A DNA stretch of 39,660 bases from a virus. This document shows positions 51 through 33,171 of the stretch, piece after piece. The translations under genes were made by a program, and so were the position numbers. The notes beneath the pieces are model-generated. The model was given only the letters and a program-made list of their open reading frames with translations. It had not been told where the DNA came from and ran no database searches. The DNA lies in the IMG/VR virus record IMGVR_UViG_3300043536_000055, positions 1-39,660 of that record; one strand, written 5' to 3'. Position 1 is the first letter of the stretch. Each line of letters begins with the position of its first letter.

Positions 51-127
51 GGCGGAGTAGCTCAGCTGGTTAGAGCAGCGGAATCATAATCCGTGTGTCG
101 GGGGTTCGAGTCCCTCCTCCGCTACCA
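51..127 (+). tRNA. tRNA-Met (anticodon CAT)
   Basis: A full cloverleaf can be folded. The acceptor stem pairs 51-57 with 117-123 (first pair G-T). The anticodon stem carries the 7-base loop ATCATAA, giving anticodon CAT. The T arm is 100-104/112-116 with loop TTCGAGT. The discriminator A is at 124 and an encoded CCA at 125-127. It resembles the elongator tRNA-Met of alphaproteobacteria; CAT could also mark a lysidine-modified tRNA-Ile2, which sequence alone does not exclude. It is the only host gene in the window, and the prophage integrase runs convergently into it, which marks it as the integration target. Confidence 0.95.
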
Positions 128-1703
128 GCTCCCCGCCCGAATGGTGCGCCATCTGGAACGGATCGAGCCCGAGCAGGCCGCCGAGTTCCCCGCGCACCAC
201 GATCCGGGGTGCGATCCCTCTTGCCGCCGGCTGGATGGTCACCGTCTCGATCATGGCGCGGATGGCATTGGCGGCCGCATCGACGCCCTGGGTTAACCCG
301 GCGTTAAGCGTCTCCTCGAGGCGCGCCAGGTCGGCAACGTAAGTTTCGACCGCGGCCGGGCGGAGCGCAATGACGGTCGGCGGGATCCCGAGTGCCGCCA
401 GCTCGGCCGCCAGCGCAGCCCTCCGCGCCCGCAGCGCCGGCAGGTGGACAGCCGCCTCGGCTTCCGTGATCCGCCCATCGATAATGGCCCTGACGGCGCG
501 CTCGAGCTGTCGATCGAGGGTAGCGAGCTCGCGCTCGAGCGCTTGGCGTCGGGTTTGCCCGCCGACGTCGCGCTTGCGCCGCTCCTCGTTATAGCAGCGC
601 ACGAAATAGGCCACCGCTTCCCGCGTGCCGAGCTCCTCGCGCAAGCCGCCGACCACCGTGCGCTCGATGTCGTCGAGATAGTAGGACCGGCGATTGGAGC
701 AGCTCGCCGCCTCGCGCATGCGCGTGCAGACGATGCGCGGGCGGCCGTGGTCGACGTCCTTTTTCGACATGCCGGCGCCGCAGGCGCCGCAGCGAAGGAG
801 CCCGGAGAGAATACGCTTCGGCGTCGCGCGCATATTGCGCGGCGCAACTGCCCGCTCTGCGCGCCGTCGCTGCACCTGGTCGAACAGGTCATCGTCGACG
901 ATGCGCAGATGCGGCGCATCGCTACGTTGCCATTCACTCTCCGGCAACGGCCGCGACAGCCGCTTGCCGGTCGCCGGATTCTTCACCATGCGCACGCGGT
1001 TCCAGACAAGCCGCCCGGCATAGAGCTCGTTCTGCAGGATCCCGCTCTTGCGTTTGTTGTGGCCGTTGATGGTCGAGGCGAGCCAGTAACTCTTGCGTGG
1101 AGCGGGGACGCCTTCGGCATTGAGCTGCGCCGCGATCGCGCGCGGTGCCCGGCCGTCGGCATATTCGCGGAAGATGCGGCGCACGATGCCGGCTTCCTGC
1201 GGTTCGATCTCAAGCTCGCCAGGCTTGCCGGCGATCGGCCGGTAGCCATAGGCCAGGCCGCCAGGATGGCGACCGTCGCGGATCACGCCCGCCATGCCGC
1301 GGCGAATCTTGACAACGAGATTTTTCAGAAACAACGCATTCATCGTGCCCTTGAGCCCGACGTGCATCTCGTTGATCAATCCGTCGCCGACCGTCTCGAT
1401 CGCCACGCCGGTGAAAGTCATCTGCTCGTAGAGTTTGGCGACGTCGCCGAGGTTGCGCGACAGGCGATCCAAGTCTTCCGCCACGATGACGTCGCACTCG
1501 CCGGCGGCCGCCAATGCCACCATGCGCAGATAGTCCGGGCGATTGACGATCGAAGCGCCGGAAATGGCGCGATCGGCAAAGATGCGGTCGATCTGATAAT
1601 CCTTCCGCGCGCAATAGGCGCGGTTGCCGGCGTGTTGATCGTCGATCGAGCGATCGTCTTGAAGGTCGCTAGAGAAACGCGCGTACAGGAAAGCGCGGGT
1701 CAT
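84..1703 (-). CDS. Large serine recombinase (phage integrase)
   Basis: This 539-residue protein would integrate and excise the phage. The N-terminal resolvase domain (about residues 4-150) has the motif YARFSS, with Ser11 as the expected nucleophile. The Recombinase domain (about 155-270) contains YGYRP and a basic loop. A zinc ribbon (about 300-345) has CGACG followed by two later Cys, and a coiled coil lies at about 380-435. This order is the usual large serine integrase layout. Oddly, the last 13 residues (VAEEGLEPPTHGL) are encoded by the antisense of the tRNA-Met gene, and the stop lies in the anticodon region. The start shares ATGA with the upstream 53-codon gene, so it is the last gene of the left operon. 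Confidence in the family is very high; the exact attachment core is inferred. Confidence 0.95.
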   Translation of the reverse strand: MTRAFLYARFSSDLQDDRSIDDQHAGNRAYCARKDYQIDRIFADRAISGASIVNRPDYLRMVALAAAGECDVIVAEDLDRLSRNLGDVAKLYEQMTFTGVAIETVGDGLINEMHVGLKGTMNALFLKNLVVKIRRGMAGVIRDGRHPGGLAYGYRPIAGKPGELEIEPQEAGIVRRIFREYADGRAPRAIAAQLNAEGVPAPRKSYWLASTINGHNKRKSGILQNELYAGRLVWNRVRMVKNPATGKRLSRPLPESEWQRSDAPHLRIVDDDLFDQVQRRRAERAVAPRNMRATPKRILSGLLRCGACGAGMSKKDVDHGRPRIVCTRMREAASCSNRRSYYLDDIERTVVGGLREELGTREAVAYFVRCYNEERRKRDVGGQTRRQALERELATLDRQLERAVRAIIDGRITEAEAAVHLPALRARRAALAAELAALGIPPTVIALRPAAVETYVADLARLEETLNAGLTQGVDAAANAIRAMIETVTIQPAARGIAPRIVVRGELGGLLGLDPFQMAHHSGGELVAEEGLEPPTHGL

Positions 1704-1861
1704 GGCCCGGCGGCACGGCGACGTTCTTCACCACGCCGATAGGCCGCATCGTATGCATCCTTCATCTCAGGAAACGGTAAGTCGTTGCGTTTTGGGTGCC
1801 GATGCCAGCCATCATCCTCGCCCCACGTTTCGGCCCACGTTATTTTCTCTGCATCTATCAT
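1700..1861 (-). CDS. Small charged phage protein (53 aa), unknown function
   Basis: The reading frame begins MIDAEKITWAETWGEDDGW and ends in an Arg-rich tail (RRGEERRRAAGP). It is supported by position: its start overlaps the stop of the 51-aa gene upstream (ATGA) and its stop overlaps the integrase start (ATGA), the same coupling seen throughout the operon. The N-terminal half is acidic with four Trp and the C-terminal half basic. I do not recognise a family. The place just before the integrase is where excisionase-type accessory proteins sit in some phages, but nothing in the sequence shows that role. Confidence 0.6.
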   Translation of the reverse strand: MIDAEKITWAETWGEDDGWHRHPKRNDLPFPEMKDAYDAAYRRGEERRRAAGP

Positions 1862-2013
1862 CGTTTAGCCTCTCGATCCCGATCCTCCCGCGCCACGGCG
1901 TCCCTGGCAAGGGCCTCGATGATGCGCTTGATTTCCGGGCGCAAGCCTTGTGGAGAAGCCCATAGCGGCGTATCGGGGCCGATCTGATCGCGTGAGGGCA
2001 GCGAACGGGTCAC
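1858..2013 (-). CDS. Small phage protein (51 aa), unknown function
   Basis: A GTG start at 2013 overlaps the stop of the winged-helix gene (GTGA), and the stop overlaps the start of the 53-aa gene (ATGA). The protein begins MTRSLPSRDQIGPDTPLW and ends in a highly charged helix (ARDAVAREDRDREAKR). No family is recognised. The two-sided overlap is the main evidence that it is translated. Confidence 0.5.
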   Translation of the reverse strand: MTRSLPSRDQIGPDTPLWASPQGLRPEIKRIIEALARDAVAREDRDREAKR

Positions 2014-2249
2014 GATCTTGGCTTCGCCCGCCAACGGAAATTCCGCCTAGTCGCGCCCGGCCGCTTATCGATCACGCCGTAGGCCGCCAGCTTCGAAAGC
2101 TTCGTCGACGTATTGTACGAGGTCATGCCGGTGCGCGTGGCGACCTCGGCGGAAGTAAGACCCTCCGGCTCGCCCGCGAGCGTGGCGAGGATGATGTCAG
2201 TGACCATGCTTATCCGGTTGACTCCCGAGGCTCTACATCTTGTGGTCAT
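2010..2249 (-). CDS. Small winged-helix DNA-binding protein
   Basis: The core (TDIILATLAGEPEGLTSAEV then ATRTGMTSYNTSTKLSKLAAYGVIDKR) reads as helix, helix-turn-helix and wing, like MarR/IclR-type small regulators, followed by a basic tail. The start chosen, 2249, shares ATGA with the stop of the 90-aa gene. A second ATG at 2207 would begin directly with the folded domain and may be the true start, because the first 14 codons lie in a junction repeat that is also found at 2603-2620. It probably regulates part of the left operon or excision; the target is unknown. Confidence 0.65.
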   Translation of the reverse strand: MTTRCRASGVNRISMVTDIILATLAGEPEGLTSAEVATRTGMTSYNTSTKLSKLAAYGVIDKRPGATRRNFRWRAKPRS

Positions 2250-2518
2250 AACGCCTTCGCTCCGGCGCTGTCGCGAAGCGCCTTCCAAGCGCGACCATCG
2301 CGGATCGCCTTAAATATTGGCCGAAGAATATCGAGGTCATAATTATCGACGCCGAGAACCTTCATTTTGGCGCGCGTAGTGAGGCCAGCGGCGCGCAATA
2401 TTTCTTCGGCGGCGACTTCTTCGCCCCAAACGCCAACCATCGTCGAGCACGCCACGGCTATCCCGCTCGCGAAGCCGCGCTCATGCCATAAATCCTGTTC
2501 TTTGGTGCGCCGCGCCAT
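2246..2518 (-). CDS. Phage protein of unknown function (90 aa)
   Basis: The protein begins MARRTKEQDLWHERGFASG and continues with helical, acidic sequence (WGEEVAAEEILRAAGLT, VLGVDNYDLDILRPIF). It looks like a compact, soluble, mostly helical protein of the kind conserved in rhizobial phages, with no catalytic motif that I can see. It sits between the methyltransferase and the winged-helix gene, and its stop overlaps the latter's start. It is separated from the methyltransferase by a 98-base gap holding the junction repeat and a perfect palindrome. Confidence 0.65.
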   Translation of the reverse strand: MARRTKEQDLWHERGFASGIAVACSTMVGVWGEEVAAEEILRAAGLTTRAKMKVLGVDNYDLDILRPIFKAIRDGRAWKALRDSAGAKAL

Positions 2519-2524
2519 TTTCGT

Positions 2525-2620
2525 TAATCCATCAACATCTAGTAGGTCTCAGCGTTTTTGTATGGCAACCGGATAAGCATGTATCCGGTTGTCTCACACA
2601 GCCCTACATCTTGTGGTCAT
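2525..2620. repeat. Junction repeat shared by three gene boundaries of the left operon
   Basis: The same pieces recur at three boundaries. TACATCTTGTGGTCATA occurs at 2233-2249 and 2604-2620. CCGGATAAGCATG occurs at 2569-2581 and 3708-3720, and in reverse at 2205-2217. A block with GGTCTCAGC just upstream of a start is at 2533-2560 and 3678-3705. At 3678-3737 the block can encode a 19-residue peptide (minus strand, MSEVTDMLIRPQMLRPTKC) that overlaps both neighbours; the copy near 2580 is broken by a stop. The copies surround the winged-helix, 90-aa and methyltransferase genes, so they mark module boundaries or regulatory linkers. Confidence 0.75.
2566..2591. promoter_or_regulatory. Perfect 26-bp inverted repeat (possible operator)
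   Basis: CAACCGGATA (2566-2575) and TATCCGGTTG (2582-2591) are perfect 10-bp arms around AGCATG. The site lies in the gap between the methyltransferase stop and the 90-aa gene. The half-site CAACCGGATA also occurs at 2211-2220 (reverse) just upstream of the alternative winged-helix start, and a CCGGATA half-site is at 3708-3714. The two-fold symmetry suits a dimeric regulator, perhaps the nearby winged-helix protein; that link is inference. Confidence 0.45.
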
Positions 2621-3684
2621 AGCCGCTCCGGGTGTGGAAACGGCTTTGTCCACATATCGAGCCAAGATTCCTGCTTTGGCGCGTCCGCGATTTGCAAGCA
2701 CGGCGGCGAATACCAAACGCATTCGCTGTCAGTTGTCTTGCCGCCAGAATAGGTCAGACGGCCACGCGACCATTCGACGGTTTCCCATCCCGGCAAGTCG
2801 TAATCGCCTTTGTGGCCGCATAGAGCGATCCGAAGGTGGCTATTGTCTCCGGCCCATGTTGCAACGGCATCGGCGACAGGCGATGAGGCCCCATAAAGCC
2901 GCTCATATGCCCGGTATGGCGGGTCGAGAAAGACGCCCGTTTCATCGCCGCCGAAGTGGTTATTGAGGCAGCGCGACCAATCGCCATGAACGATCCGAAC
3001 ACGCTCCAGCCGGTCAGCAATTCGCCGCAGCCAAGCCATCGCCGTTCGGCCACAGGAGGTCAGCAATTCGCTTTCGCCCCTCCCGGCGTCAACTGTGGCA
3101 TGGGGGATTTTGCCGATGGCCTGTACGCCCCTCCCGGCGTCACTGGCATGGGGGATTTTGCCGATGGCCTGTACGCCCATCCCGGCGTTACCGGCATGGG
3201 GGATTTGGCCGATGGCCTGTACGCCCATCCCGGCGTTACCGGCATGGGGGATTTGGCCGAACCAATCGCACCAGCCCGAACCTATCCAGCAGCATTGGCC
3301 CCACAGCCACCATCCCGCGACCTTGGCATCGCCGGGCCAATCTGGGTCTTGCATCGCCTCGCCGATGCGCTGGCGCTGCGCCATAAGCCAAACATGCCGC
3401 GCCCCAAGGTCGATGTGCGAGACGGGATAATCGGACCATTCCGCGACGGTCGCGGCTTGATGCTTTACCGCACGCCAGAAGTTTGCGATGAAGCCGCTGC
3501 CGTCGCCAATGACTTCAAGGGACGCCGGGTTCGGCGCGGCGAGTAGGACGGCGGCCGATCCACAAAAAGGTTCGATGTATTGCACCGGGTTGCCAAGCCG
3601 CGACCATATCTCAGTCGCGATTGATCGCTTGCCACCGAAGTAGGGAAATGGCGACAAAAGACATTTGGTTCCGCTCGTCAACAT
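2617..3684 (-). CDS. DNA adenine methyltransferase (D12 class, Dam-like) with internal tandem repeat
   Basis: This 355-residue protein would methylate the N6 of adenine in DNA, probably protecting phage DNA from restriction. Motif I is PFPYFGGKR (about residues 13-21), followed by the FCGS region. The catalytic DPPY is in VFLDPPYRAYERLYG in the second half. Between them, about residues 142-203, lie nearly four copies of a 16-residue unit (QIPHAGNAGMGVQAIG) that a minimal Dam enzyme lacks. The ATG at 3684 overlaps the end of a 19-codon frame in the junction repeat, and the stop overlaps an ATGA. The family call is certain; target site and repeat role are unknown. Confidence 0.93.
   Translation of the reverse strand: MLTSGTKCLLSPFPYFGGKRSIATEIWSRLGNPVQYIEPFCGSAAVLLAAPNPASLEVIGDGSGFIANFWRAVKHQAATVAEWSDYPVSHIDLGARHVWLMAQRQRIGEAMQDPDWPGDAKVAGWWLWGQCCWIGSGWCDWFGQIPHAGNAGMGVQAIGQIPHAGNAGMGVQAIGKIPHASDAGRGVQAIGKIPHATVDAGRGESELLTSCGRTAMAWLRRIADRLERVRIVHGDWSRCLNNHFGGDETGVFLDPPYRAYERLYGASSPVADAVATWAGDNSHLRIALCGHKGDYDLPGWETVEWSRGRLTYSGGKTTDSECVWYSPPCLQIADAPKQESWLDMWTKPFPHPERL
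3076..3260. repeat. 48-bp in-frame tandem repeat inside the methyltransferase gene
   Basis: Unit boundaries at GCCC(C/A)TCCCGGCGT give copies at 3076-3126 (51 bp, one extra codon), 3127-3174, 3175-3222 and a partial copy 3223-3260. Copies differ by a few bases. Each full unit is a multiple of three, so copy changes would lengthen or shorten the target-recognition part of the enzyme without breaking the frame. Confidence 0.92.
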
Positions 3685-3733
3685 TTAGTGGGTCTCAGCA
3701 TTTGTGGCCGGATAAGCATGTCAGTGACTTCGC

Positions 3734-4171
3734 TCATCTGTTTCGTTCCGCAATTGCCGAAAGAATGACCGCCCGCATGGCGACCAGGTCGCCGCGCTGC
3801 GCATAGAGCCGTTCACAGATCAGAAGCGGATTGATGCCGAGCTGATGCCAGAACAGATACTCGCCGCTCCGATGAAGCGCATCGCGATCTGTCTGATGGC
3901 AGCCGCGATCGAGCGGGAGCGCCCATCTATCGTCCGGCTTCTTCCCTATGCCGCCGCGCTTGTGGAAGGCGGCCGACGTGATCCTCACGTGGGCGGCTTC
4001 GCCGCACGGCTCCATCCCGCACTTAACGCACGGAAGCTGCCGCACCATCGCCAGATAGGATGCGTCACCGATCCGTTCCTGATGCGCAAACGGCGCGATG
4101 CTGATCGGATGCTTGAGCAAGCTACCGATCGGCGCGATGCGGGCGATGCGTTTGGGGAGTGGGCGGATCAT
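3734..4171 (-). CDS. DUF968/Ref-like HNH-type nuclease
   Basis: This roughly 145-residue protein carries CVKCGMEPCGEAAHVR, then RGGIGKKPDDRWALPL, then RGCHQTDRDALH. Paired Cys, a central His and a final CHxxxH-like segment are the pattern of the DUF968/YbcO/Ref group of phage HNH nucleases, which cut structured or single-stranded DNA in recombination or lysis-stage processing. The start at 4171 overlaps the stop of the upstream gene (TAATG); a more distal ATG at 4192 would run further into that gene. The family is likely, the exact substrate unknown. Confidence 0.75.
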   Translation of the reverse strand: MIRPLPKRIARIAPIGSLLKHPISIAPFAHQERIGDASYLAMVRQLPCVKCGMEPCGEAAHVRITSAAFHKRGGIGKKPDDRWALPLDRGCHQTDRDALHRSGEYLFWHQLGINPLLICERLYAQRGDLVAMRAVILSAIAERNR

Positions 4172-4551
4172 TATTGTGCCTGATAGGAGCAAATGAAAAT
4201 TGGCCGATCATCTGCGCGCGCTTCCATCGTCCTGGCGAAGGTGACGCGCCAGAGCTTCTCGTAAGGCTGCCCGTTGGCAATCGGCCATACGATCGCGACG
4301 CCATTGAGCGGCAATCCGTAATCGCGAAGCGTGGCAAGCGCGCCGAAACCGATCGCGTCGTCATCCCGCGCGATCAGGTCGATGGTCGGCTCGAAATAGG
4401 CGTGGCCTTTGCCGCCTTGGCATGACTGGCAGGTTTCAAAACCGCCGGCGTGCAGCACGCGCACGGCGAATCTGATGCCAGGATCAAGCTCTTGGTAGAA
4501 TGTTTCTGGCATCATCATATTGCGGAGCGGGGCCGGCTTCTTGGCGCGCAT
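4171..4551 (-). CDS. Phage protein of unknown function (126 aa)
   Basis: The sequence begins MRAKKPAPLRNMMMPETF and contains FETCQSCQGGKGHAYFEP, a CxxC pair that could bind metal or form part of a zinc knuckle, then IVWPIANGQPYEKLWRVTF. The TGATG overlap with the 37-aa membrane gene fixes the start at 4551. No family is recognised with confidence; it resembles small phage proteins found near replication or restriction-evasion genes. Confidence 0.7.
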   Translation of the reverse strand: MRAKKPAPLRNMMMPETFYQELDPGIRFAVRVLHAGGFETCQSCQGGKGHAYFEPTIDLIARDDDAIGFGALATLRDYGLPLNGVAIVWPIANGQPYEKLWRVTFARTMEARADDRPIFICSYQAQ

Positions 4552-9700: not shown

Positions 9701-10075
9701 ATGAGCAAAGAAGACGCGATGAGCAAAGAAGAGTTGTCTCAGGATGTTGCGATAGAGCCAATCATATTTCGATCTACGATCAAGGATGAACGCCAGATCA
9801 TTTATGTGGCGCAGCGATGGCCAGAATACGCAAGCATCGATCCATGCGCGCTTCGCTTTCCTGGCATCTCGATTCGCGATGATGGCATGATCGTTCTGAC
9901 GTGCGAGAACGGCTTTGCCATCTATAAGTTAGCAAAAACTCAAATCAGCGAACCAGCGCCCCGATCGTTAGATCGGTGGGTTGTGTGCCGTGCGCCTTAC
10001 GGAATCACCGTCGAATTAGTCGAAAGCGATTTCTCGGCAGCGCCGTTGTTTGATCAGATCGGGGGTGACGGATGA
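9701..10075 (+). CDS. Phage protein of unknown function (124 aa)
   Basis: The protein starts with a doubled phrase MSKEDAMSKEEL, from an 18-bp near-tandem repeat of the start region, then carries IIYVAQRWPEYASIDP, ISIRDDGMIVLTCENGF and RAPYGITVELVESDF. The predicted fold is mixed alpha/beta. Because of the duplication, a start at 9719 would also give a full protein. No family is recognised. Confidence 0.68.
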   Translation: MSKEDAMSKEELSQDVAIEPIIFRSTIKDERQIIYVAQRWPEYASIDPCALRFPGISIRDDGMIVLTCENGFAIYKLAKTQISEPAPRSLDRWVVCRAPYGITVELVESDFSAAPLFDQIGGDG

Positions 10076-10422
10076 CCCCCTTCGAAGCCTCCGGCCTCCT
10101 GCAAGAGATCGTCACGTTCGCCCAGGAAATCCTCTGCCGTCCGCTCGGCGATCTGACGACGCGCCGGCAACGCTGCGAGGCGCTGCAGGGCCGCCTCGAG
10201 GCGGCGATCATCGACAGCGCCGGCATCAGCCATCTGCTCGACAACGGCGCGCCGGCGCTCCTTCACGCCATCGATCGCGTGCTCTATCGCCGGCGTTGCT
10301 ATGACGAACCTGGCGCCGCGGTTTGGGAAGGCGTGGTCGGCCATCTGATGCCGATCGCCCGCAGCGACAGCGGTGCCATCCTGGCCAGGGCGCATGACAA
10401 TGCGCCAGAAAGGGTGACGTGA
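10072..10422 (+). CDS. Helical phage protein of unknown function (116 aa)
   Basis: MTPFEASGLLQEIVTFAQEI, then two more helices (RRQRCEALQGRLEAAII and GISHLLDNGAPALLHAID) suggest a soluble helical bundle. The start shares ATGA with the gene before, and the stop lies against the ParB/MT-A70 start (TGATG). Function is unknown. Confidence 0.68.
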   Translation: MTPFEASGLLQEIVTFAQEILCRPLGDLTTRRQRCEALQGRLEAAIIDSAGISHLLDNGAPALLHAIDRVLYRRRCYDEPGAAVWEGVVGHLMPIARSDSGAILARAHDNAPERVT

Positions 10423-11624
10423 TGAACGCCGACGCGATGCAATCATATCGTCGCATCTCCGAGGTCAAGGTCGGCAACCGCCATCGCAAGGAGATGGGCG
10501 ACATAACGGCGCTCGCCCGCGACATCAACGAGCGCGGGTTGTTGCACCCGATCGTCGTCGATCAAAAGAACAGACTGATCGCCGGCGAGCGCCGGCTCAA
10601 GGCCTGGCAGCTCTCGAACTTCCGCGAGCAGCCGATCCCGGTTCACGTCGTGCCGCTCGAGGACATAGTCGCCGGCGAATGGGCGGAGAACGATCCGACG
10701 CTGCGCAAGAATTTCACGCCGTCGGAAGCGGTCGCCATCGCCCGCGAGCTGCGGCCGCGGCTGGAGGTGGCGTCCAAGAAACGGCAGCAAGAGCACGGTG
10801 GAACTGCGCCCGGTCGCAAGGCCGAACACTCCGCGCAAGTTGCGCCAAGTGTTGAAGCCGAGAAGGGTCGCGCGGTAGCCAAGATCGCCAGGGCGACGGG
10901 CAAGGGCGCGCGCACGCTAGAGAAGGCCGAGGCGATCGTCGAGGCGGCAGAGAAAGAGCCCGCCAAGTTCGGCAAGCTCAAAGCCGACATGGACAAGTCG
11001 GGCCGCGTTGACGGCCCGTTCAAGCGGCTGCAGACAATGAAGGCGGCCGAGCAGATCCGCAAGGAACCGCCGCCGCTGCCCGGCAACGGTCCCTATCGCG
11101 GCATGGTCATTGATTTTCCCTGGGCGGCCGAGCCCGACGACGACGATCCCGAACGCCTGGCGCGCGGCTACTATCCCTATGCGACGATGTCGATGAATGA
11201 GATCGCAGAGTTTTGCGCGCTGTCGATCGTGCCGCTGCTGCACAGAGATTGCACGGTCGCCGTCTGGATCACGAACTATCATCTGGCACTCGGCCATCAA
11301 TTGCATGTGTTCAACGCGCTCGAGTTGAAACCGACGACGATTCTGACCTGGCGCAAGAGCAAACTCGGCCGCGGCCAGGTGGCGCGCGGCACCACCGAAC
11401 ACGTCATCATCGCTCGCCGCGGCAAGTCGGTCATCGAGACGTTCCCGCGCACCGATTACGACTGGCCGTCTGACAAAGTGCACTCCCGCAAGCCGCAAAG
11501 CTTCTTTGATCTGTTCGCTAAGCACGTCCCGGCGCCGCGCTACGCCACGCTCTTCGAGACTGTCGATCGCGGTCCGCTTTGGGATGGGCATGGCGACAAG
11601 ATTACGCTGCGGGAGGCGGCATGA
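10422..11624 (+). CDS. ParB-like domain fused to MT-A70-family methyltransferase
   Basis: This 400-residue protein has a ParB/Spo0J-like N-terminus (about 10-100: ISEVKVGNRHRKEMGDI, then GLLHPIVVDQ and LIAGERRLKAWQ), a helical linker, and a C-terminal MT-A70 domain (about 215-400). The conserved motif reads DFPW (about residues 231-234), where the family has DPPW; the downstream YYPYATMSMNEI, AVWITN and KPTTILTW segments are intact. MT-A70 phage enzymes methylate adenine at N6, and ParB-type modules bind DNA and nucleotide. It probably modifies phage DNA against restriction, but the motif change makes activity uncertain. A GTG at 10419 is an alternative start. Confidence 0.88.
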   Translation: MNADAMQSYRRISEVKVGNRHRKEMGDITALARDINERGLLHPIVVDQKNRLIAGERRLKAWQLSNFREQPIPVHVVPLEDIVAGEWAENDPTLRKNFTPSEAVAIARELRPRLEVASKKRQQEHGGTAPGRKAEHSAQVAPSVEAEKGRAVAKIARATGKGARTLEKAEAIVEAAEKEPAKFGKLKADMDKSGRVDGPFKRLQTMKAAEQIRKEPPPLPGNGPYRGMVIDFPWAAEPDDDDPERLARGYYPYATMSMNEIAEFCALSIVPLLHRDCTVAVWITNYHLALGHQLHVFNALELKPTTILTWRKSKLGRGQVARGTTEHVIIARRGKSVIETFPRTDYDWPSDKVHSRKPQSFFDLFAKHVPAPRYATLFETVDRGPLWDGHGDKITLREAA

Positions 11625-22614: not shown

Positions 22615-22692
22615 GGGGTGGCGGGTTTAATCATCGCGTGCGGCGCCCCAGGAACCCGGTTGCTTCTCACGGGGAGATTTTTTCACTCCGAA

Positions 22693-22714
22693 AATTCCTG
22701 GAATTATTTTTTTT
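22693..22714 (+). terminator. Short hairpin with T8 upstream of the terminase ATPase copy
   Basis: AATTCCTGGAATT (22693-22705) can form a 5-bp stem with a small loop and is followed by A and eight T (22707-22714). In the second leader the palindrome is eroded (ATCCTGAAATT) but the T-run remains. It may be a weak terminator or pause site in front of the large terminase gene. Confidence 0.35.
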
Positions 22715-22734
22715 GAGAAGGTCTGCGAGGGCCT

Positions 22735-23574
22735 ATGGCTTGGGACTTCTCCTGCATCGATTGGGAAGACCGCATCACGGATGGCCGTTCGCTCATTCCT
22801 AAGCTCGCGCTCGATGAAAAGATCGCAAACCGCGCGCTCGGGGTTTTCAATTCGCTGAAGCTTCCAGACGTGCCCGGCACGCCGGCGCTCGAGGACGCCA
22901 GCGGCGAATGGTTTCGCGACGTCGTTGCGGCGTTGTTCGGGTCCCTGGAAAACGGCGCGCGCATGGTGCGCGAGCTTTTCCTGATGATCCCCAAGAAGAA
23001 CAGCAAGACCACCAACGGTGCGGCGCTTATGCTCGTCGCGCTGATGATGAACCGCCGCCCGCGAGCGGAATTTCTGCTTATCGGTCCGACGCAAGCGATC
23101 TCGGAGCTGGCATTCAACCAGGCGGTCGGCATGATCGCTACCGATCCTGAGTTGTCGCGGCTCTTCAAGATCCAGGATCACATCAAAAAAATCACCTATC
23201 GCGGCAGCGTCGTTTCATCGCTGCAGATCAAGACCTTCGACGCTTCGGTGCTCACCGGCGTCAAGCCGGTCGGCGTGCTGATCGATGAGCTGCATGAGCT
23301 CGGCAAGATTTCCGGCGCTGCCAACGTGATCCGGCAGATCCGTGGCGGCCTGTTGCCGTTCCCGGAGGCCTTTCTGGTATTCATCACGACGCAATCGGAC
23401 AAACCGCCGGCCGGCGCGTTCAAGGCTGAACTGCTCAAGGCGCGAAAGATCCGCGACGGCAAGATTCCGGCGCGCGGTATGTTGCCGGTGCTCTACGAAT
23501 TTCCCAGGGCCCTGATCGACAACGGCGCCTGGCGCGACCTCACGGGGAGATTTTTTTGCTCTGAAAAATCCTGA
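22735..23574 (+). CDS. Truncated large-terminase copy (ATPase domain only)
   Basis: 279 residues, a full ATPase half of a large terminase: Walker A in MIPKKNSKTTNG (about residue 90), Walker B LIDELHEL (about residue 180) and FITTQSDKPPAG. The sequence then enters the next leader (GAWRDLTGRFFCSEKS) and stops, so the nuclease domain is missing. It starts with the same MAWDFSCIDW as the complete gene. It could be an inert relic, a competitor or a separate motor subunit. I call it a CDS because the reading frame is intact and all motor motifs remain. Confidence 0.75.
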   Translation: MAWDFSCIDWEDRITDGRSLIPKLALDEKIANRALGVFNSLKLPDVPGTPALEDASGEWFRDVVAALFGSLENGARMVRELFLMIPKKNSKTTNGAALMLVALMMNRRPRAEFLLIGPTQAISELAFNQAVGMIATDPELSRLFKIQDHIKKITYRGSVVSSLQIKTFDASVLTGVKPVGVLIDELHELGKISGAANVIRQIRGGLLPFPEAFLVFITTQSDKPPAGAFKAELLKARKIRDGKIPARGMLPVLYEFPRALIDNGAWRDLTGRFFCSEKS

Positions 23575-23607
23575 AATTATTTTTTTTGAGAAGGTCTGCG
23601 AGGGCCT

Positions 23608-25299
23608 ATGGCTTGGGACTTCTCCTGCATCGATTGGGAAGACCGCATCACGGATGGCCGATCGCTCGTTCCGCATCTGCCGCTCGATGAAAAGCTGGCG
23701 ATCAGGGCGATCGAGGTCTTCAACTCGCTGAAGCTTCCCGACGTGCCCGGCACGCCGGCGCTCGAGCAGGCCAGCGGCGAATGGTTCCGCGAAATTCTGA
23801 CGGCGCTATTCGGATCGATTGTCGACAGCGCGCGCCTGGTACGCGAGCTGTTCCTGATGATCCCGAAAAAGAACTCGAAGACGACCAACGGCGCGGCGAT
23901 GATGCTGACCGCGCAGATGATGAACCGCCGACCACGGGCTGAGTTTCTGTTGATCGGTCCGACGCAGGCGATCTCGGAGCTGGCGTTCAACCAGGCCGTC
24001 GGGATGATCGGCGCCGACGCCGAGCTGTCTCGGCGGTTCAGGATCCAGGAGCACGTCAAGAAGATCACCTATCGCGGCAGCGTCGTTTCATCGCTGCAGA
24101 TCAAGACGTTCGACGCCTCGGTGCTGACCGGCGTCAAGCCGGTCGGCGTGCTGATCGATGAGCTGCATGAGCTCGGCAAAATCTCCGGCGCTGCCAACGT
24201 GATCCGGCAGATCCGTGGCGGCCTGTTGCCGTTCCCCGAGGCCTTTCTGGCGTTCATCACCACGCAGTCCGACAAGCCGCCGGCGGGCGCATTCAAGGCC
24301 GAGCTGCTCAAGGCCCGCAAGATCCGCGATGGGAAGATCCCGGCGCGCGGCATGCTGCCGGTGCTTTACGAGTTTCCCCGGGTGCTGATCGACAATGGCG
24401 CCTGGCGCGATCCGACCAATTGGCCGATGGTCAATCCGAACGTCGGCCGCTCGATCACGGTGCCGCGGCTGATCGAGGATTACGAGACCGCGCTCGAGAC
24501 CGGCGACGAGGAATTGCGCGGCTGGGCCTCTCAGCATCTCGACATAGAAATCGGCCTGGCGCTGCATACCGACCGCTGGGCCGGCGCCGATTATTGGGAG
24601 GCCTGCGGCGATCCGACCCTGACGTTCGAGTCCTTGATCGAACGATCCGATGTGATCGTGGTCGGGATCGACGGCGGTGGCCTCGATGATCTACTCGGCA
24701 CCATCGTGCTCGGCCGTGATGCCGAAACGCAGGATTGGCTGGTGTGGGCGAAGGCGTGGGCCCATCGCTCGGTATTTGACCGGCGCAAATCCGACGTCGC
24801 GCCGCGGCTTCTGGATTTCCAGAAGGACGGCGATCTTGTCATCGTCAAGGAGGTCGGCGACGACGTTGCCGAGCTCGGCGACCTGGTCGAAAAGATCTGG
24901 CTGACCGGCAAGATGCCGGAAGAGCATTCGATCGGCGTCGATCAATATTGCATCAGCGCCATCGTCGAAGAGATTGCTCGCCGCGACATCGATACCGAGA
25001 AAGCTTTCGTCGGCGTGCCGCAGGGCTGGAAGCTTACCGGTGCCATCACGACGACGGCACGCCAGCTCGCCGGCAAGAAGCTTGTCCACGCCGCCCAGCC
25101 GCTGATGGCCTGGTGTGTCGGCAACGCCAAAGTCGAGCCGAAAGGCAACGCCATCACCATCACCAAGCAGGCGGCGGGAACGGCGAAGATCGATCCCCTG
25201 ATGGCGCTGTTCGATGCCGCCGTGGTGATCGGAATGAATCCGACGGCCACGTCGAGCATCTATGACCGCGAGCCCGGCCGCAGCTTCCTGGTGGTGTAG
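23608..25299 (+). CDS. terL: Terminase large subunit
   Basis: 563 residues with Walker A (MIPKKNSKTTNG), Walker B (VGVLIDELHELG), motif III (FITTQSDKPP) and a C-terminal RNase H-like nuclease with acidic sites in VVVGIDGGGLDDLLG, GVDQYCISAI and DPLMALFDAAVVIG. It packages DNA into the prohead and cuts the concatemer. Start MAWDFSCIDWED is preceded by GAGGG. The upstream copy lacks the nuclease half. The portal starts directly after the stop. Confidence 0.96.
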   Translation: MAWDFSCIDWEDRITDGRSLVPHLPLDEKLAIRAIEVFNSLKLPDVPGTPALEQASGEWFREILTALFGSIVDSARLVRELFLMIPKKNSKTTNGAAMMLTAQMMNRRPRAEFLLIGPTQAISELAFNQAVGMIGADAELSRRFRIQEHVKKITYRGSVVSSLQIKTFDASVLTGVKPVGVLIDELHELGKISGAANVIRQIRGGLLPFPEAFLAFITTQSDKPPAGAFKAELLKARKIRDGKIPARGMLPVLYEFPRVLIDNGAWRDPTNWPMVNPNVGRSITVPRLIEDYETALETGDEELRGWASQHLDIEIGLALHTDRWAGADYWEACGDPTLTFESLIERSDVIVVGIDGGGLDDLLGTIVLGRDAETQDWLVWAKAWAHRSVFDRRKSDVAPRLLDFQKDGDLVIVKEVGDDVAELGDLVEKIWLTGKMPEEHSIGVDQYCISAIVEEIARRDIDTEKAFVGVPQGWKLTGAITTTARQLAGKKLVHAAQPLMAWCVGNAKVEPKGNAITITKQAAGTAKIDPLMALFDAAVVIGMNPTATSSIYDREPGRSFLVV

Positions 25300-26658
25300 A
25301 TGGGCCTGATCTCGCGCATTCGCGCTGCCGGCGCCGCTCTGGTCGCCAAGGATGCCGGCGCCGCGTCCGGCGTGAGCGCGAGCCAAGGCGGCGGCGGCTG
25401 GCTGCCGACGCTCGGTTCGACGCCATCCGCAACAGGACTGTTGATCAGCCAGGGCACGGCGATGGCCGTGTCGGCAGTCTATGCCTGCGTCACTATCCGT
25501 TCCCAGGACGTGGCGCGCTGCACGCCGCGGCTGTTCAAGGAAAAGAAAAGCGGATCGCGCGAGCGTATTTTTGAGCACGATGTCGTCGAGCTATTCAAGA
25601 AGCCGAACGAGCAGCAGACGTGGTTCGAGTTCATCGAACAGACAATGTCGGGCTATTTGCTGCGCGGCAACGGCTACGCGGCGAAGAAGGGCATCACCAA
25701 GCGCGGCCAGGTCGAAGAGCTAATCCCGGTCAATCCAGACGCCGTGCTGGTGATGGAGTCCTGGGACGGTCAGATCTTCTACAACGTCAACAGGCTTGGG
25801 CTCTGGCAGATCGCGATGCTGCGGGAATTCCCGCCGACGCTCGCGTCCGAGGATATGTTCCACCTGCGCGGGCTATCGTTCAATGCGCTGGTTGGTCTCT
25901 CGACGATCGGCAATGCGCGCGATGCGATCGGCGTCGCCATGGGGTTGGAGCAACAAGCAGCGCGCTGGATGAAAAACGGCGCTCGGCCGTCGATGATCTT
26001 GGAGTCGAAGAAGCCGCTGCAGAAGCAAACTGCGGAACGCCTGAAACAGCAATTCGACGAACTTAAATCCGGTCTCGAAAACACCGGGCAGACCGTGGTG
26101 CTCGAGGACGGCATCGAAGCAAAGCCGTTGCAACTCACATCGGTCGATGTAGAGTTCATGGCGCAGCGGAATTTCTCGGTGGCGGACATCGCGCGGTTCT
26201 ATCGCGTGCCGCCGTTCAAGCTCGGCGCGACAGAACTTCGCGGCATCGACATCGAGGCGATCACCAACGATTACGTGACGTCGGCGATCATGCCCGATCT
26301 GCATCGGCTCGAGCAGCGCATCGAGCAGAGCTTCGATCTGACGTCTCAAGACATCAAAGTCAGTTTCGATGAGCGCATTTTGTTGCGCAGCGACGCCAAG
26401 ACGCGGTTCGCAAACAATCGCATCGCGCTCGGCGGCGCGGCCTGGGCGGCAGTGAACGAGGTTCGCGCCGGCGAGCAATTACCGCCGGTCGAGGAACTCC
26501 CGGAAGGGCCGGGCTGGCAGATCAATCAGCCGGTCAATCTCGCGGCGATCGGTTCGGATCGTACCGGCACCGCGCCTGATGGCGCCGGCCGTCCGGAAGA
26601 CGGTCGCATGCCGGAGCCGGGCGTGGCGTCGCCAAAACCGAACGGCGCAGCGCATTAA
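25300..26658 (+). CDS. HK97-type portal protein
   Basis: 452 residues with SAVYACVTIRSQDVARC, PNEQQTWFEFIEQTMSGYLL, RGNGYAAKKG, DMFHLRG and GATELRGIDIEAITNDYV. These are the phrases of the HK97 gp3 portal family, forming the 12-mer ring at one capsid vertex. The Pro/Gly-rich tail (GTAPDGAGRPEDGRMPEPG) is probably disordered inside the shell. It starts right after the terminase stop. Confidence 0.95.
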   Translation: MGLISRIRAAGAALVAKDAGAASGVSASQGGGGWLPTLGSTPSATGLLISQGTAMAVSAVYACVTIRSQDVARCTPRLFKEKKSGSRERIFEHDVVELFKKPNEQQTWFEFIEQTMSGYLLRGNGYAAKKGITKRGQVEELIPVNPDAVLVMESWDGQIFYNVNRLGLWQIAMLREFPPTLASEDMFHLRGLSFNALVGLSTIGNARDAIGVAMGLEQQAARWMKNGARPSMILESKKPLQKQTAERLKQQFDELKSGLENTGQTVVLEDGIEAKPLQLTSVDVEFMAQRNFSVADIARFYRVPPFKLGATELRGIDIEAITNDYVTSAIMPDLHRLEQRIEQSFDLTSQDIKVSFDERILLRSDAKTRFANNRIALGGAAWAAVNEVRAGEQLPPVEELPEGPGWQINQPVNLAAIGSDRTGTAPDGAGRPEDGRMPEPGVASPKPNGAAH

Positions 26659-26659
26659 G

Positions 26660-29074
26660 ATGTCGGCGGGTCACCATGCGCACCGGAACAATGTTCCGGC
26701 AATCGACGATGCGTTCTTTGCTCGCATCAAACTTTTGGTCGACACTTGTCGCATCGATCGCGACCACACCATTCCATGGCTCGCCAATCGCTCGATCGAC
26801 GGCCGCGGCGTCTATATCGATGTGAGTGTGCCGACGATCCTGCCGAAGACGCAGATCAACACAGGATTGACGTTGCCCTATCACGAGCTCGGCGAATGGC
26901 TCGGGATGAACGAGGGCAAGGAGTATAACGAAGCGCACCAAAGCTGCGGCAATCCTTGCGAGAAACGCCGCGTTGAAGAGCTCGGCGGCGACTGGCAAGC
27001 GTACCAAGAAGAAATGCAAGCCTATGTCCGCGAAGTCGACGACGAGGCGATGACCAGAGTCCCCGCCGATATCGACAAGCGGGTGTTTATTGATGACGAC
27101 GATAAGGCGGCACTGGAAGCGATCATTGCTGACAACCAGGGAAACCCGCCGGTCAACTCAGCGGAGGATGATCTTGCTGGCGATGCGGACGAGATAATTC
27201 TCGGCGTCTATGTTGGAAGTGCTAAGGCGTGCCGACCGGCTAAAAACCTCGGCTTCGAATGTTTGAATGTGTTTGATGTCCCGTGGTGTAAGACCGATGG
27301 TTGCGTTCATATCCCTATTATGGCGACCGACAAATCCGTCGATCCTGTGGCTCTCGCTAAGGCCGTCGATCAAATAGAAGCATGGGACGCTGCCGGAAAG
27401 ACTTTATTGGTCCACTGTCGTAAGGGCATCGAGCGAGCTCCGCTGGTCGTGGCCGTTTGGTTGAGTGAGCATCGGGGTCTTTCTCTGGACGAGGCCTTCG
27501 ATCTTGTTGCCGCTGGTCGCCCGCAGATTGAAGACCGCCGCGACTGGCTTACGAAGAAGGGGCCTCGGATGCAGCTCAAATACGTCTCCGGCAGCGTGCT
27601 GGCGGACAATATGCTTGGCGAGCGGCAGATCCGCGTGATCGCCTCCGATCCGACTGTCGATCGGGTCAAGGACATCATGGTGCCGGAAGGGTGCGTGCTC
27701 GACAGCTACAAGGCCAATCCGATTGTGCTATTCAATCACGATCCGTCAGCGCCGATCGGCAATGCTGCGGTCGCCGTGCAGAACGGTCGCGTCGAGGCGC
27801 TGATCGATTTCGCCCCGAAGGGCATCTCCACCAAGGCCGATGAGATCTGTGCGCTCTACAAGACCGGCGTGCTGCGCGCCGTCTCAGTCGGGTTCCAGCC
27901 GATCGAATACGAGCAGATCAAAGACGGCGGCGTGCGTTACAACAAATGGGCGCTGATGGAATTGTCCGGCGTCAGCGTGCCGGCAAATTCCAACGCCGTA
28001 ACCATCGAGCGATCCATGGCAACGTCAACCAAAGCTGCATCGTGGAAAGTCGGAGCTTCGCGCAACCTGCCGATCGACAAGGATTCGTCCTGGGACGGCC
28101 CGGCGGCGGAAAAGAGCATCTTCGATCATTGCGGCTTCGATGGTGATAAGCCGAACACTGCGCTCGCGCGCAAGGGCTTCCTGTTTTACGATGCGAGCAA
28201 GCCGAAGCTGAAGGGCTCCTACAAGGAACCGTTCGCCAAGATGAGCAGCGGCCGGCTGACCGCAGTTGCCGCCGGCATTCGCGCCGCGGCGTCGCGGCTT
28301 CCGGGGACCGACGTGCCCGACGATCTGAAAAAGTCGGCGCGCGCCGTCATCGATCACTACGAGGCCAAGATGAAAGACGACGGCAAGGGCCTCCTGGTCC
28401 CGGTGACCAAACTAATCGAATACGGCAAGAACGGCAAGATCAAGATCAAGGGCCTCTACGAATGCGCCGAGCTCGCTCATGTGCTCTGGCAGCTCGACTT
28501 CATCCACGATCACGCGGTATTTGAGCAGCAGGTCGAGAGGGACGCGAGCAAGCTTCCTGAAATGCTCGCCGGAATTTTGACGGACGCCGCCGCGGCGCTT
28601 GTCGCTATGACGCAAGAAGAAACCGCGGAGCTGCTAGCCGGGCATGGCATCGACGTCATGCCGCCCGACGAGGATTATGTCGAGGCTGCAGCGACGCCGC
28701 AGGTCAAGGCGCTGCGCGCCGCTTTCCGCAAGGCCGGCCGCGTGCTGAGCCAGGAGAATATGGAGCACCTGGCCGAGATCGGCAAATGCCTCAAGGGAAT
28801 GACTGCCTGCCACGAAAAAGCGGCGGAGCTGCACGATTTCCTGCACGACAACCTCGTCGACATGATGGATCACGGCACTTCGCTCGGCGAGCATCTGAAA
28901 GCGATGCGCAAGGCGGCGAAGAAGAAGCCGGCCGAGAACGGCAACGACGCTGACGAGGATGGCGAGGAGGGTGAGGACGTCGCCGACCCGAGCAACGCTG
29001 ACCAGGAGCTCGCCGCCGAGGTCGAGGCGCGCAAGCGTGTGACCGAGGTCATGGAGCGCGCGGTCACTCTCTGA
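26660..29074 (+). CDS. Multi-domain polyprotein: phage N-domain, Cys-dependent phosphatase, HK97 prohead protease, helical C-domain
   Basis: One frame of 804 residues. Residues 1-140 have DHTIPWLANRSIDGRGVYID and LPYHELGEWLGMNE, a phage domain of unknown role. Residues about 176-302 form a dual-specificity-phosphatase-like domain with catalytic Cys253 and Arg259 in VHCRKGIERAPL (CX5R). Residues about 304-445 are a prohead protease (peptidase U35): His360 in FNHDPSAPIG, Ser409 in AVSVGFQP and Glu434 in ELSGVSVPAN. The remainder is a helical, acidic-tailed region that may scaffold. An internal ATG at 27569 (MQLKYVSG, GAAGGGG upstream) could give a separate protease. The start ATG 26660 follows the portal stop. 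Confidence 0.88.
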   Translation: MSAGHHAHRNNVPAIDDAFFARIKLLVDTCRIDRDHTIPWLANRSIDGRGVYIDVSVPTILPKTQINTGLTLPYHELGEWLGMNEGKEYNEAHQSCGNPCEKRRVEELGGDWQAYQEEMQAYVREVDDEAMTRVPADIDKRVFIDDDDKAALEAIIADNQGNPPVNSAEDDLAGDADEIILGVYVGSAKACRPAKNLGFECLNVFDVPWCKTDGCVHIPIMATDKSVDPVALAKAVDQIEAWDAAGKTLLVHCRKGIERAPLVVAVWLSEHRGLSLDEAFDLVAAGRPQIEDRRDWLTKKGPRMQLKYVSGSVLADNMLGERQIRVIASDPTVDRVKDIMVPEGCVLDSYKANPIVLFNHDPSAPIGNAAVAVQNGRVEALIDFAPKGISTKADEICALYKTGVLRAVSVGFQPIEYEQIKDGGVRYNKWALMELSGVSVPANSNAVTIERSMATSTKAASWKVGASRNLPIDKDSSWDGPAAEKSIFDHCGFDGDKPNTALARKGFLFYDASKPKLKGSYKEPFAKMSSGRLTAVAAGIRAAASRLPGTDVPDDLKKSARAVIDHYEAKMKDDGKGLLVPVTKLIEYGKNGKIKIKGLYECAELAHVLWQLDFIHDHAVFEQQVERDASKLPEMLAGILTDAAAALVAMTQEETAELLAGHGIDVMPPDEDYVEAAATPQVKALRAAFRKAGRVLSQENMEHLAEIGKCLKGMTACHEKAAELHDFLHDNLVDMMDHGTSLGEHLKAMRKAAKKKPAENGNDADEDGEEGEDVADPSNADQELAAEVEARKRVTEVMERAVTL

Positions 29075-29208: not shown

Positions 29209-30723
29209 ATGACGATCGCGGCAGTGCGCGCCAAGCGCGCAGCGGCCCTCGATGCGCTTGCCACAAAGCGCACTACGACTTTCGACGCCTTCAAGGCCTT
29301 CGCTGAGAAGAAAGACTTCAAGAAGAGCGACCAACCGGAATACGACCGGCTGAAGAAGGCGTTTGATGATGTCATCACCGAGATGAAGGCGACGACCGAA
29401 GAGTACGACGCCGAGATCAAGCGTCTCGAGGATGTCGAAAACGCCGGCCGATTGAACGCCAGGGCGGTCGATGGCCAGGAACTGCCGGTGCGGACGGTTG
29501 CAGCAGAGGCCGAGAACGATCCATACACCAGCGACGCAGCGGCGAAGGCTGCCGGCTTGACTACCAACAAGGGCCTGATCGCCATCGGCATGTCGAAGGC
29601 GATGTATATGGGCAGTTACATGCCGTCGACCGGCATGGAAATGGCGAAGATGAACTATGGCGAGCGCCATCCGGTGACGGAAGCGCTGTGCCGTGGCTTT
29701 GCCACCGGGACTCGTAAGGCGTTGCAGGCCGGCATCGGCCCGTCGGGCGGCTTCATTGTTCCGCCAGAATACGTCAACGAGATCATCGAGCTCCTTCGTC
29801 CGCGCGTCGTGGTGCGAGCGGCCAATCCGCGCACCATGCCGATGCCGCGCGGCACGATGACCTTGCCGGGGCAGACCGCGGCCGCAACCGCGACCTACGG
29901 CTCCGAGACCGGCCAGATCAATGCCTCGCAGCAGGGCCTCGGTCAGATCGTTGCAACCTACAAGAAGCTCACGGCTCTTGTTCCAGTCACCAACGACCTG
30001 ATGCGCTATGCCTCGCCGGCCGCCGACGCCTTCGTGCGCGACGATTTGGTGAAGGTCACGGCATTGCGCGAGGATCTCGCCTTCCTCACCGGCGACGGTA
30101 CGTCCGACACTCCGAAAGGTTTCCTCGGCTTTGCCAACAACTATGTGGCAAACCAGGGCGGCACCGTCGGCGTCTGGTTATCAACTGCGGATTCCACGTA
30201 TGCGGTGGGCGGCCAGTTCATCACCTCGAACGAGAGCTACACGCTCACCACGGTGGCGAACGAACTGGCTGGTTTGGTCGAGAAGCTCGACGCCGCCAAC
30301 GTGTCGGATATCCGCCGGCGTTGGTTCTTCCATCCGCGCATCTTCAACTACCTCAACAACCTGCTCAACTCGCTCGGCGTCTATGTGTACCGCGACGAAT
30401 TGAGCCGCGGCACGCTGCTCGGCTATCCATTCTCGAAGTCGACGCAGATTCCAACGAATCTGTGGGACACCAACGCGGCGTCCAAGATCGGCACGTTCAT
30501 CTTCCTCGTTGAGATGGACGATGCACTGATCCTCGACTCCATGCAGCTTGAGCTCGCGGTCTCCCGCGAGGGCACCTACTACGATGCCAACAACAATCTG
30601 CAGTCGGCGTTCCAGAAGGATCAGACCTTGATCCGCGCCATCGCCGAGCACGACTTCCAGATGCGCCACTTGCCGTCGATCGCGGTCAACCAGGGCGTGA
30701 TCTGGGCGCCGGCGCTGTCGTAA
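29209..30723 (+). CDS. HK97-type major capsid protein
   Basis: 504 residues. The N-terminal 85 are a helical delta (scaffold) domain (AVRAKRAAALDALATKRT, FKAFAEKKDFKK) that the protease would remove. The shell fold begins near GGFIVPPEYVNEIIELL and includes TYKKLTALVPVTNDLM, LTGDGTSDTPKGF and AIAEHDFQMRHLP. The family is certain. SD TTGGAGAAC is 5 bases before ATG 29209. The 134 bases before it hold an inverted repeat (29078-29097) and no gene. Confidence 0.97.
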   Translation: MTIAAVRAKRAAALDALATKRTTTFDAFKAFAEKKDFKKSDQPEYDRLKKAFDDVITEMKATTEEYDAEIKRLEDVENAGRLNARAVDGQELPVRTVAAEAENDPYTSDAAAKAAGLTTNKGLIAIGMSKAMYMGSYMPSTGMEMAKMNYGERHPVTEALCRGFATGTRKALQAGIGPSGGFIVPPEYVNEIIELLRPRVVVRAANPRTMPMPRGTMTLPGQTAAATATYGSETGQINASQQGLGQIVATYKKLTALVPVTNDLMRYASPAADAFVRDDLVKVTALREDLAFLTGDGTSDTPKGFLGFANNYVANQGGTVGVWLSTADSTYAVGGQFITSNESYTLTTVANELAGLVEKLDAANVSDIRRRWFFHPRIFNYLNNLLNSLGVYVYRDELSRGTLLGYPFSKSTQIPTNLWDTNAASKIGTFIFLVEMDDALILDSMQLELAVSREGTYYDANNNLQSAFQKDQTLIRAIAEHDFQMRHLPSIAVNQGVIWAPALS

Positions 30724-31334: not shown

Positions 31335-32747
31335 ATGTGGGTGTTAGCCAGCCTTAATCGTGTGGCGCGCGTCATCTCATTGCTTGAGGCGATGCGCGCT
31401 ACCGGAGTGTCGACGCCAGGCGTCGTCATTCTCGGCCCCGACCAGGCCGGCGATCTTGCGTCGCTGCCGCTACCTGAAGGCTGGACGGCACAGTGTCAGC
31501 ACCCCGACGATCATTGTCTCACGCAGGTGCTTAATCGCTTTCTGCGTGAGCATCCCGATCATGAGTGGTACGGCCAAATCTGCGACGACAACATTCCAGT
31601 CACGTTCGGCTGGGATACACGGTTGATCGAGCAGGCGCTGAAATCCGGGATCGCGTCCTGCGACGACGGCTGGCAGGCGCCGCGGCGCATGCACAGCGCC
31701 ACGGTTTGGCGCGGCGATGTGCTCCGCTGCGCGGAATTCTGGCAACCGCCGATGGTGCGGCATTCTTGCGCCGATGATTTTTGGGAAGAGATCGGGCGGC
31801 GGTTCGGGATTTGGACTTGTTTGATGGACGTCCGTGTCGAGCACCATCATCCGCTCAAACATGGTGATGTGCTTGATGCGACCTACGCCCGGCAGATGAA
31901 ATGGCTCGCCGAGGACGTGGCCGAGTTCAAGGCGTGGCGAGCTGGCTCCGATTACGCCGCATTGATCTGCCGCTTTGCGAAGCTCTTTACGCCCACGGAA
32001 GCCCAAGCCGCGCAGGCACGCCTCGATCGTGCGCGCTCTCGTCGCCCGATGATCTGCACGCCTGTGGCGCGATCTCCGGCGCTGGAATATACGATCTCCT
32101 ATGCCGATACCGGCGTGCATCTGGAGCGGACCGGCATCCAGCTGTGGTCGCATTTTGTCATCGGATCATCCAACCTGCCGCGCGCGCGCAACGAGCTGGT
32201 CGCCAGGTTCCTTGCTTCGCAATGCAGCGACCTGATCTTCGTCGACGACGATATGGGCTGGCGCCCCGAAGCCGTAGTGCGGTTGCTGGCATCAGAAAAG
32301 CCGGTGATCGCCGGCGTCGGGCGCAAGCGGGTCGACAAGCCGAACTCGGATCGCGACGTCTGGTGCGTCAGCTTTCTGGAAGACGCGCAGTCGATGCTCA
32401 ATCAAGACGCTATGGGCGCGATCGAGGTCGAGGCCGTCGGCACTGCGTTCATGAAGATCGAACGCGGCGTATTCGAAACGCTGATCGCCGCGCATCCGGA
32501 ATGGAAGCGTGACGGCCACGACGGCATGTCGGCGGCAGTCAAGGAAAAATACTACCGCTTTTTCAAGTTCAATGACGAGACCGAAGGCGGCGAGGATTTT
32601 TTGTTCTGCCACAACTGGCGCGCGCTCGGCGGCAAGGTCTTCATCGATCCGATGATCTGGCTGTCGCATGCCGGCGGCAAGGCGTGGTCGGGCTGCATCG
32701 CCGAAATGCTCCAGCCCGTCGCACAAAGATTAGAGGCCGCGGAATGA
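31335..32747 (+). CDS. Two-domain glycosyltransferase in the head gene cluster
   Basis: 470 residues made of two GT-A-type halves. The first (about 1-230) has GVVILGPDQAG and an acidic ICDDNIP (about residue 81). The second (about 250-465) has SNLPRARNELVARFLAS and a clear DxD motif in LIFVDDDMGWRPEAV (about residue 301), with a later GVGRKRV. DxD glycosyltransferases bind nucleotide-sugar by metal. The gene sits between head and neck genes, suggesting glycosylation of virion proteins. The fusion could also be a two-step sugar transferase. Confidence 0.82.
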   Translation: MWVLASLNRVARVISLLEAMRATGVSTPGVVILGPDQAGDLASLPLPEGWTAQCQHPDDHCLTQVLNRFLREHPDHEWYGQICDDNIPVTFGWDTRLIEQALKSGIASCDDGWQAPRRMHSATVWRGDVLRCAEFWQPPMVRHSCADDFWEEIGRRFGIWTCLMDVRVEHHHPLKHGDVLDATYARQMKWLAEDVAEFKAWRAGSDYAALICRFAKLFTPTEAQAAQARLDRARSRRPMICTPVARSPALEYTISYADTGVHLERTGIQLWSHFVIGSSNLPRARNELVARFLASQCSDLIFVDDDMGWRPEAVVRLLASEKPVIAGVGRKRVDKPNSDRDVWCVSFLEDAQSMLNQDAMGAIEVEAVGTAFMKIERGVFETLIAAHPEWKRDGHDGMSAAVKEKYYRFFKFNDETEGGEDFLFCHNWRALGGKVFIDPMIWLSHAGGKAWSGCIAEMLQPVAQRLEAAE

Positions 32748-32977: not shown

Positions 32978-33171
32978 TGCCCCTCGATCGCAACATGCGG
33001 CTCCTTGTCATCGAGGCGCGCGGCACACAACCCACCGATCTGACGATCGGGGCGCTGGTCGACGGCGTGCGCGATATGGTGATGGCGGATCTGAAAAACG
33101 ACACGCCGTTGACGACGGCGCTGGCGACCGCGATCGCCAACCACCTGACAGCGACGGTCCGCCCTACGTGA
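32977..33171 (+). CDS. Small phage protein (64 aa), unknown function
   Basis: MPLDRNMRLLVIEARGTQPT then GALVDGVRDMVMADLKND looks like one strand plus a helix. The start shares one base with the upstream stop, and its stop overlaps the next GTG start. No family is recognised. Confidence 0.55.
   Translation: MPLDRNMRLLVIEARGTQPTDLTIGALVDGVRDMVMADLKNDTPLTTALATAIANHLTATVRPT

Follow-up and report, generated by a model that had tools for sequence, protein, structure and literature searches.

A single reading frame of a phage genome joins a dual-specificity phosphatase (DSP) domain to an HK97-family prohead protease. The window, i.e. the whole stretch of DNA that was analysed, is a virus record with a length of 39,660 bases. 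Translation of its plus strand gives one stop-free frame of 804 residues at 26660-29074, in which an N-terminal domain (N-domain), the DSP, the protease and a C-terminal region follow one another (Table 1). A sequence-only reading of the window had placed a phosphatase and a complete prohead protease in one frame of this length, and translation together with profile searches locates the fusion at exactly these positions. Its ATG at 26660 is one base past the stop codon of the portal gene, and the major capsid gene lies 3' of it. The frame stays open further 5', to an ATG at 26579, and the start at 26660 is the one conserved in relatives. Downstream of the protease, a conserved domain (aa 456-578, WKVGASRNLP...) is followed by a helical, charged C-terminal part.

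Table 1. Features of the fusion gene and its neighbours, in window coordinates
Feature	Position	Strand	Evidence
Portal protein	25300..26658	+	Pfam Phage_portal 5e-73
Fusion gene: N-domain, DSP, HK97 prohead protease and C-terminal region, 804 aa	26660..29074	+	Translation
N-domain (aa 1-161)	26660..27142	+	
Inserted segment (aa 162-303)	27143..27568	+	Absent from all relatives; GC3 0.56
DSPc core match (aa 196-293)	27245..27538	+	Pfam PF00782 2.7e-11
Asp224, candidate general acid	27329..27331	+	HMMER alignment with DUSP28
Phosphate-binding loop V-H-C253-R-K-G-I-E-R259-A260	27410..27439	+	
Internal Shine-Dalgarno-like GAAGGGG and ATG (27569, Met304)	27556..27571	+	Equivalents in L010, L024 and L007
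HK97-family prohead protease domain (aa 304-455)	27569..28024	+	PF04586, TIGR01543 2.5e-10
Domain after the protease and helical, charged C-terminal region	28025..29071	+	
HK97-type major capsid protein	29209..30723	+	Pfam PF05065 8.9e-40, TIGR01554

Judged by sequence profile, and not by fold, the inserted segment is a genuine DSP-family domain. Residues 196-293 match the Pfam family DSPc (PF00782) with an E-value of 2.7e-11 and 43.9 bits, compared with a curated cut-off of 33.5. The segment also matches PHROG 32716 'dual specificity phosphatase' (4.3e-5), and its best solved-structure match in the PDB, found by sequence, is human DUSP28 (1.7e-7). On its own a CX5R motif says little, since it often occurs by chance. 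Here the loop (C253-RKGIE-R259), from which a phosphatase had been proposed, lies within a whole domain above the Pfam DSPc cut-off, and the profile search suggested at that time thus returned a strong match.

In DSPs the general-acid Asp sits about 30 residues before the Cys. Asp224, the candidate here, is located 29 residues before Cys253 and is aligned with an acid-loop Asp of DUSP28 in the HMMER alignment. The catalytic Arg259 is followed by Ala260, where most DSPs have Ser/Thr; a hydroxyl residue at this position is usual, not universal, and does not define the family. As Ser/Thr after the Arg speeds phosphoenzyme breakdown in VHR-type DSPs, a slow turnover is possible with Ala260. The same Ala is found in PF00782-matched alphaproteobacterial proteins, namely L074 and L083 (above the cut-off) and L062 (below it). 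With the DSPc/VH1-like DSPs (PF00782; DUSP28, DUSP10, Tk-PTP, ShufPTP) the phage domain shares the HCxxGxxR loop, the acid-loop Asp and the profile match, while it differs in the Ala after the catalytic Arg and in its location within a phage head protease. Alignments with alphaproteobacterial DSPs cover only part of it, in short stretches that mostly have 25-50% identity. The AF2 model of the DSP alone has a pLDDT of 46, and this part is of low confidence in the full-protein model too, because no homologs could be aligned. A Foldseek search with the full low-confidence model returned PTP/DSP structures in nearly all of the best 50 matches, none of them with E <0.001, a weak signal, though a specific one.

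The protease is matched by Peptidase_S78 (PF04586) over residues 336-455 with 27.5 bits compared with a cut-off of 21, while its TIGR01543 match (2.5e-10, 40.7) stays below the equivalog cut-off of 59. His360, Ser409 and Glu434, the residues by which a complete HK97 prohead protease had been recognized in the sequence-only reading, are invariant in 23 aligned sequences, in support of that assignment. The AF2 pLDDT of the domain is about 90. Both the His/Ser/Glu residues and the position between the portal and major capsid genes are those of HK97-family prohead proteases (Peptidase S78, PF04586, TIGR01543), from which the fusion differs by the N-domain and DSP upstream and by the conserved domain and helical region downstream.

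No match to the N-domain was found in Pfam, PHROG or NCBIfam, and a PDB search with an N-domain profile gave a single marginal match, YeaZ (E 0.001). The domain carries a conserved HExxE...H pattern (His75, Glu76, Glu79, His93) and is predicted to be mostly helical, with an AF2 pLDDT of about 86-94 over aa 61-120. Its dN/dS is about 0.14 compared with L010 and L024 and 0.41 compared with L007. These values indicate purifying selection and thus that the upstream frame is translated. In L010, L024 and L007 the same N-domain is joined to the protease at the same place between portal and protease, and in alphaproteobacterial genomes it occurs as a stand-alone protein. In L066 a 919-aa frame (1670-4429) combines a portal, a MuF-like region and, at the C-terminus, the same N-domain, and lies shortly before another head protease-like gene; the labels portal, MuF and XkdF-like used for L066 are a reading of the sequence and not the outcome of a profile search. 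None of these N-domain fusions contains a DSP. As the N-domain shuttles between a portal-MuF-like protein and the head protease, it resembles a module associated with the head or packaged in it, and MuF fusions have been interpreted likewise in the literature (PMC5512222, PMC9503650).

The same protein is encoded in five more IMG/VR contigs, four of them full length and one ending at residue 485, with 100% amino acid identity over the part present. A chimera of metagenome assembly might be considered since the window is itself an IMG/VR-type virus record, but we regard it as extremely improbable: these five contigs, which come from differently numbered metagenomes, cross the junction at 99.98-100% DNA identity, demonstrating that the fusion is not an assembly error. 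All six fusion-bearing contigs represent one phage species. The assembly is thus correct, but conservation of the fusion is not thereby shown.

Besides terminase, portal, capsid and head-tail genes the window encodes a serine recombinase (84-1703, minus strand), a Cro/C1-type HTH protein, a ParB/methyltransferase and primases, a gene content that points to a temperate tailed phage. All five protease relatives in sequenced genomes belong to Alphaproteobacteria, four of them named as Rhizobiales/Hyphomicrobiales or members of these, and the host is thus probably an alphaproteobacterium. Several other features of the genome were recorded. A tandem duplication of 872 bp (22666-23537 and 23539-24410, 87% DNA identity) repeats the large terminase gene over its 5' half: the complete gene (23608-25299) is directly preceded by a truncated copy of 279 aa (22735-23574) that includes the ATPase domain. 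Contigs L002, L004 and L006 likewise have the two copies, and the dN/dS between the copies is about 0.14. A 470-aa protein encoded between the capsid and connector genes (31335-32747) has glycosyltransferase-type matches in its N-terminal half and a weak Anp1 match in its C-terminal half; relatives, some of them partial, occur in five of six related records. The ParB/methyltransferase gene (10419-11624) fuses a ParB N-terminal domain to an MT-A70-type methyltransferase domain. Two 46-bp inverted repeats, 96% identical, are located 23 kb apart at 9952-9997 and 33014-33059.

Comparison with relatives reveals how the fusion may have arisen. The nearest distinct relatives, L010 (65-70% identical) and L024 (67-69%), have the N-domain and protease in frame without a DSP, as do L007 and L008 (about 54%) in one frame. 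In remoter relatives (L009, L011, L025, L028 and others) the protease stands alone and starts at the equivalent of Met304. In the window protein about 142 additional residues lie precisely where the N-domain meets the protease start; at this junction L024 carries about 25 residues, which are unrelated. The insert of the window has a GC3 of 0.56 and the N-domain one of 0.70, while the protease and capsid genes reach about 0.80, a shift consistent with recent acquisition. While the window N-domain is closest to that of L010 (84%), the portal and the C-terminal region are closer to L024, which places the junction in a mosaic region. Taken together, the DSP was apparently acquired by horizontal transfer, apparently recently, and inserted in frame at a pre-existing N-domain/protease junction.

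When viral contigs were searched with the whole protein, with the DSP by itself and with DSP alignments, no phage species other than this one was found to carry the DSP; one of these alignments included a hand-made generic DSP-like probe, on which no result rests. Neither the 50,697 phage records nor the 72,556 plasmids that were searched gave a tblastn match to the DSP. A search of 385 alphaproteobacterial genomes gave a single weak match of 27% identity and no close relative, nor did the DSP turn up at another place in the records of the relatives. The DNA pattern for VHCxxGxxRAP matched one contig, where it proved to lie opposite a large terminase-like ORF and to be due to chance. The same fusion, which the sequence-only reading had suggested looking for in homologs, was not recovered there: no distinct relative that was found has the DSP, which we consider a lineage-specific insertion. 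As it is seen in one phage species, selection on the DSP cannot be measured, and its CX5R loop is without a conservation record.

The possible start of the protease alone that had been proposed at an internal ATG (27569) is present, with GAAGGGG at 27556-27562, and corresponds to Met304. This ATG and a purine-rich sequence upstream of it are kept in four fused types, i.e. the window, L010, L024 and L007, for which the calculated anti-Shine-Dalgarno pairing amounts to -6.4, -7.1, -5.8 and -10.3 kcal/mol, respectively, values that are not independent of each other. The background mean over 2,646 codons of the window is -2.5, and the internal site of the window is in the best 5%. At the first start (26660) Shine-Dalgarno pairing is weak in both the window and L010, and the portal stop directly precedes it, as expected for translational coupling. 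The kept internal start with its Shine-Dalgarno-like site, the weak first start and the translated N-domain favour two products, likely the protease as a short form and the fusion as a long form that is perhaps the scarcer one. Given the internal Shine-Dalgarno sequence, most of the protein could be protease alone.

The explanation that we favour, and that we judge to be evenly balanced between right and wrong, is that a horizontally acquired DSP within the prohead protease gene, expressed as part of one of two products, enters the prohead and serves as virion cargo or as an enzyme of late infection. The ordinary protease would be made from the internal ATG, and a scarcer long form comprising N-domain, DSP and protease would arise by translational coupling to the portal gene. 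This long form would enter the prohead via its protease and C-terminal part. The DSP would either be freed by the protease and reach the next host inside the virion, or be active in late infection before lysis, and would take phosphate off host or phage phosphoproteins. Prohead entry and delivery, as proposed in the sequence-only reading, would agree with what published surveys infer for other enzymes joined to MuF, to the portal or to the capsid protease (PMC9503650, PMC5512222). The two products, prohead entry, release, phosphatase activity and target are what we infer within this explanation, and Ala260, the confinement to one species, the unconfident AF2 fold of the DSP and the internal Shine-Dalgarno sequence, with its possible excess of protease alone, were counted against it. 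That the DSP is packed via the maturation protease, released by it and injected, and that it resets host kinase signalling or a kinase-based phage defence at the start of infection, is a proposal we consider unlikely.

Packaging would be dispensable if an active DSP worked in the cytoplasm in late infection, with substrates such as phage or host phosphoproteins or RNA or nucleotide phosphates, and if the link to the protease gene merely provided late expression. The DSP family match and the late head-gene position between portal and capsid fit such a role, and the internal start makes the fusion unnecessary for the protease; however, a separate gene would do the same, the frame stays open across the whole junction, and the repeated joining of the N-domain to head proteins (L010, L024, L007 and L066) argues for head targeting, so that we regard this alternative as possible but doubtful. 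The single phage species, the unrelated insert of L024 at the same junction and the atypical Ala260 would also be accounted for by a recent, near-neutral insertion into a linker that tolerates inserts, the DSP being a passenger without a selected role. The intact frame, the full Cys/Arg/Asp set and the identity in five more contigs speak against this, but since a young insertion would show these too, they only weaken a reading that we consider rather unlikely.

A role in head assembly, in which the DSP acts on phosphorylated capsid, portal or scaffold or delays the protease as an N-terminal pro-region, appears improbable to us. It would be in line with the direct covalent link to the protease and with the dormancy of HK97-type proteases until assembly. 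In contrast, no relative needs a DSP, the internal start would yield unfused protease, and we know of no phosphorylation of HK97-type head proteins.

In-frame joining of an enzyme to a head protein is a feature of fusions that have been described as probable effectors packaged in the head (Nudix, ART, 2H or PBECR on MuF, portal or capsid peptidase; PMC9503650, PMC5512222). Nudix domains are fused to MuF, to portal and to a capsid-processing serine peptidase, with packaging and injection inferred (PMC9503650), and assemblin-like peptidases are found at the C-termini of polyvalent proteins (PMC5512222), the peptidase being C-terminal as in the fusion described here. The enzyme is different, in our case a DSP. 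The word phosphatase has no occurrence in the 2017 paper on polyvalent proteins (PMC5512222), and in the open-access papers searched we found none on a prohead protease with a dual specificity phosphatase in a phage, which is weak evidence of absence. In our best reading, drawn by analogy, the fusion fits the known head-effector plan with a different enzyme, and a DSP on this protease is a combination that we have not found reported. Should the DSP be packaged, phages would have in the head protease one more vehicle, beside MuF and portal, for taking a signalling enzyme into the bacterium, and they could interfere with bacterial protein phosphorylation before expressing any gene of their own. 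That a phage can place cargo on an essential protease and still retain that protease would be explained by the conserved internal start.
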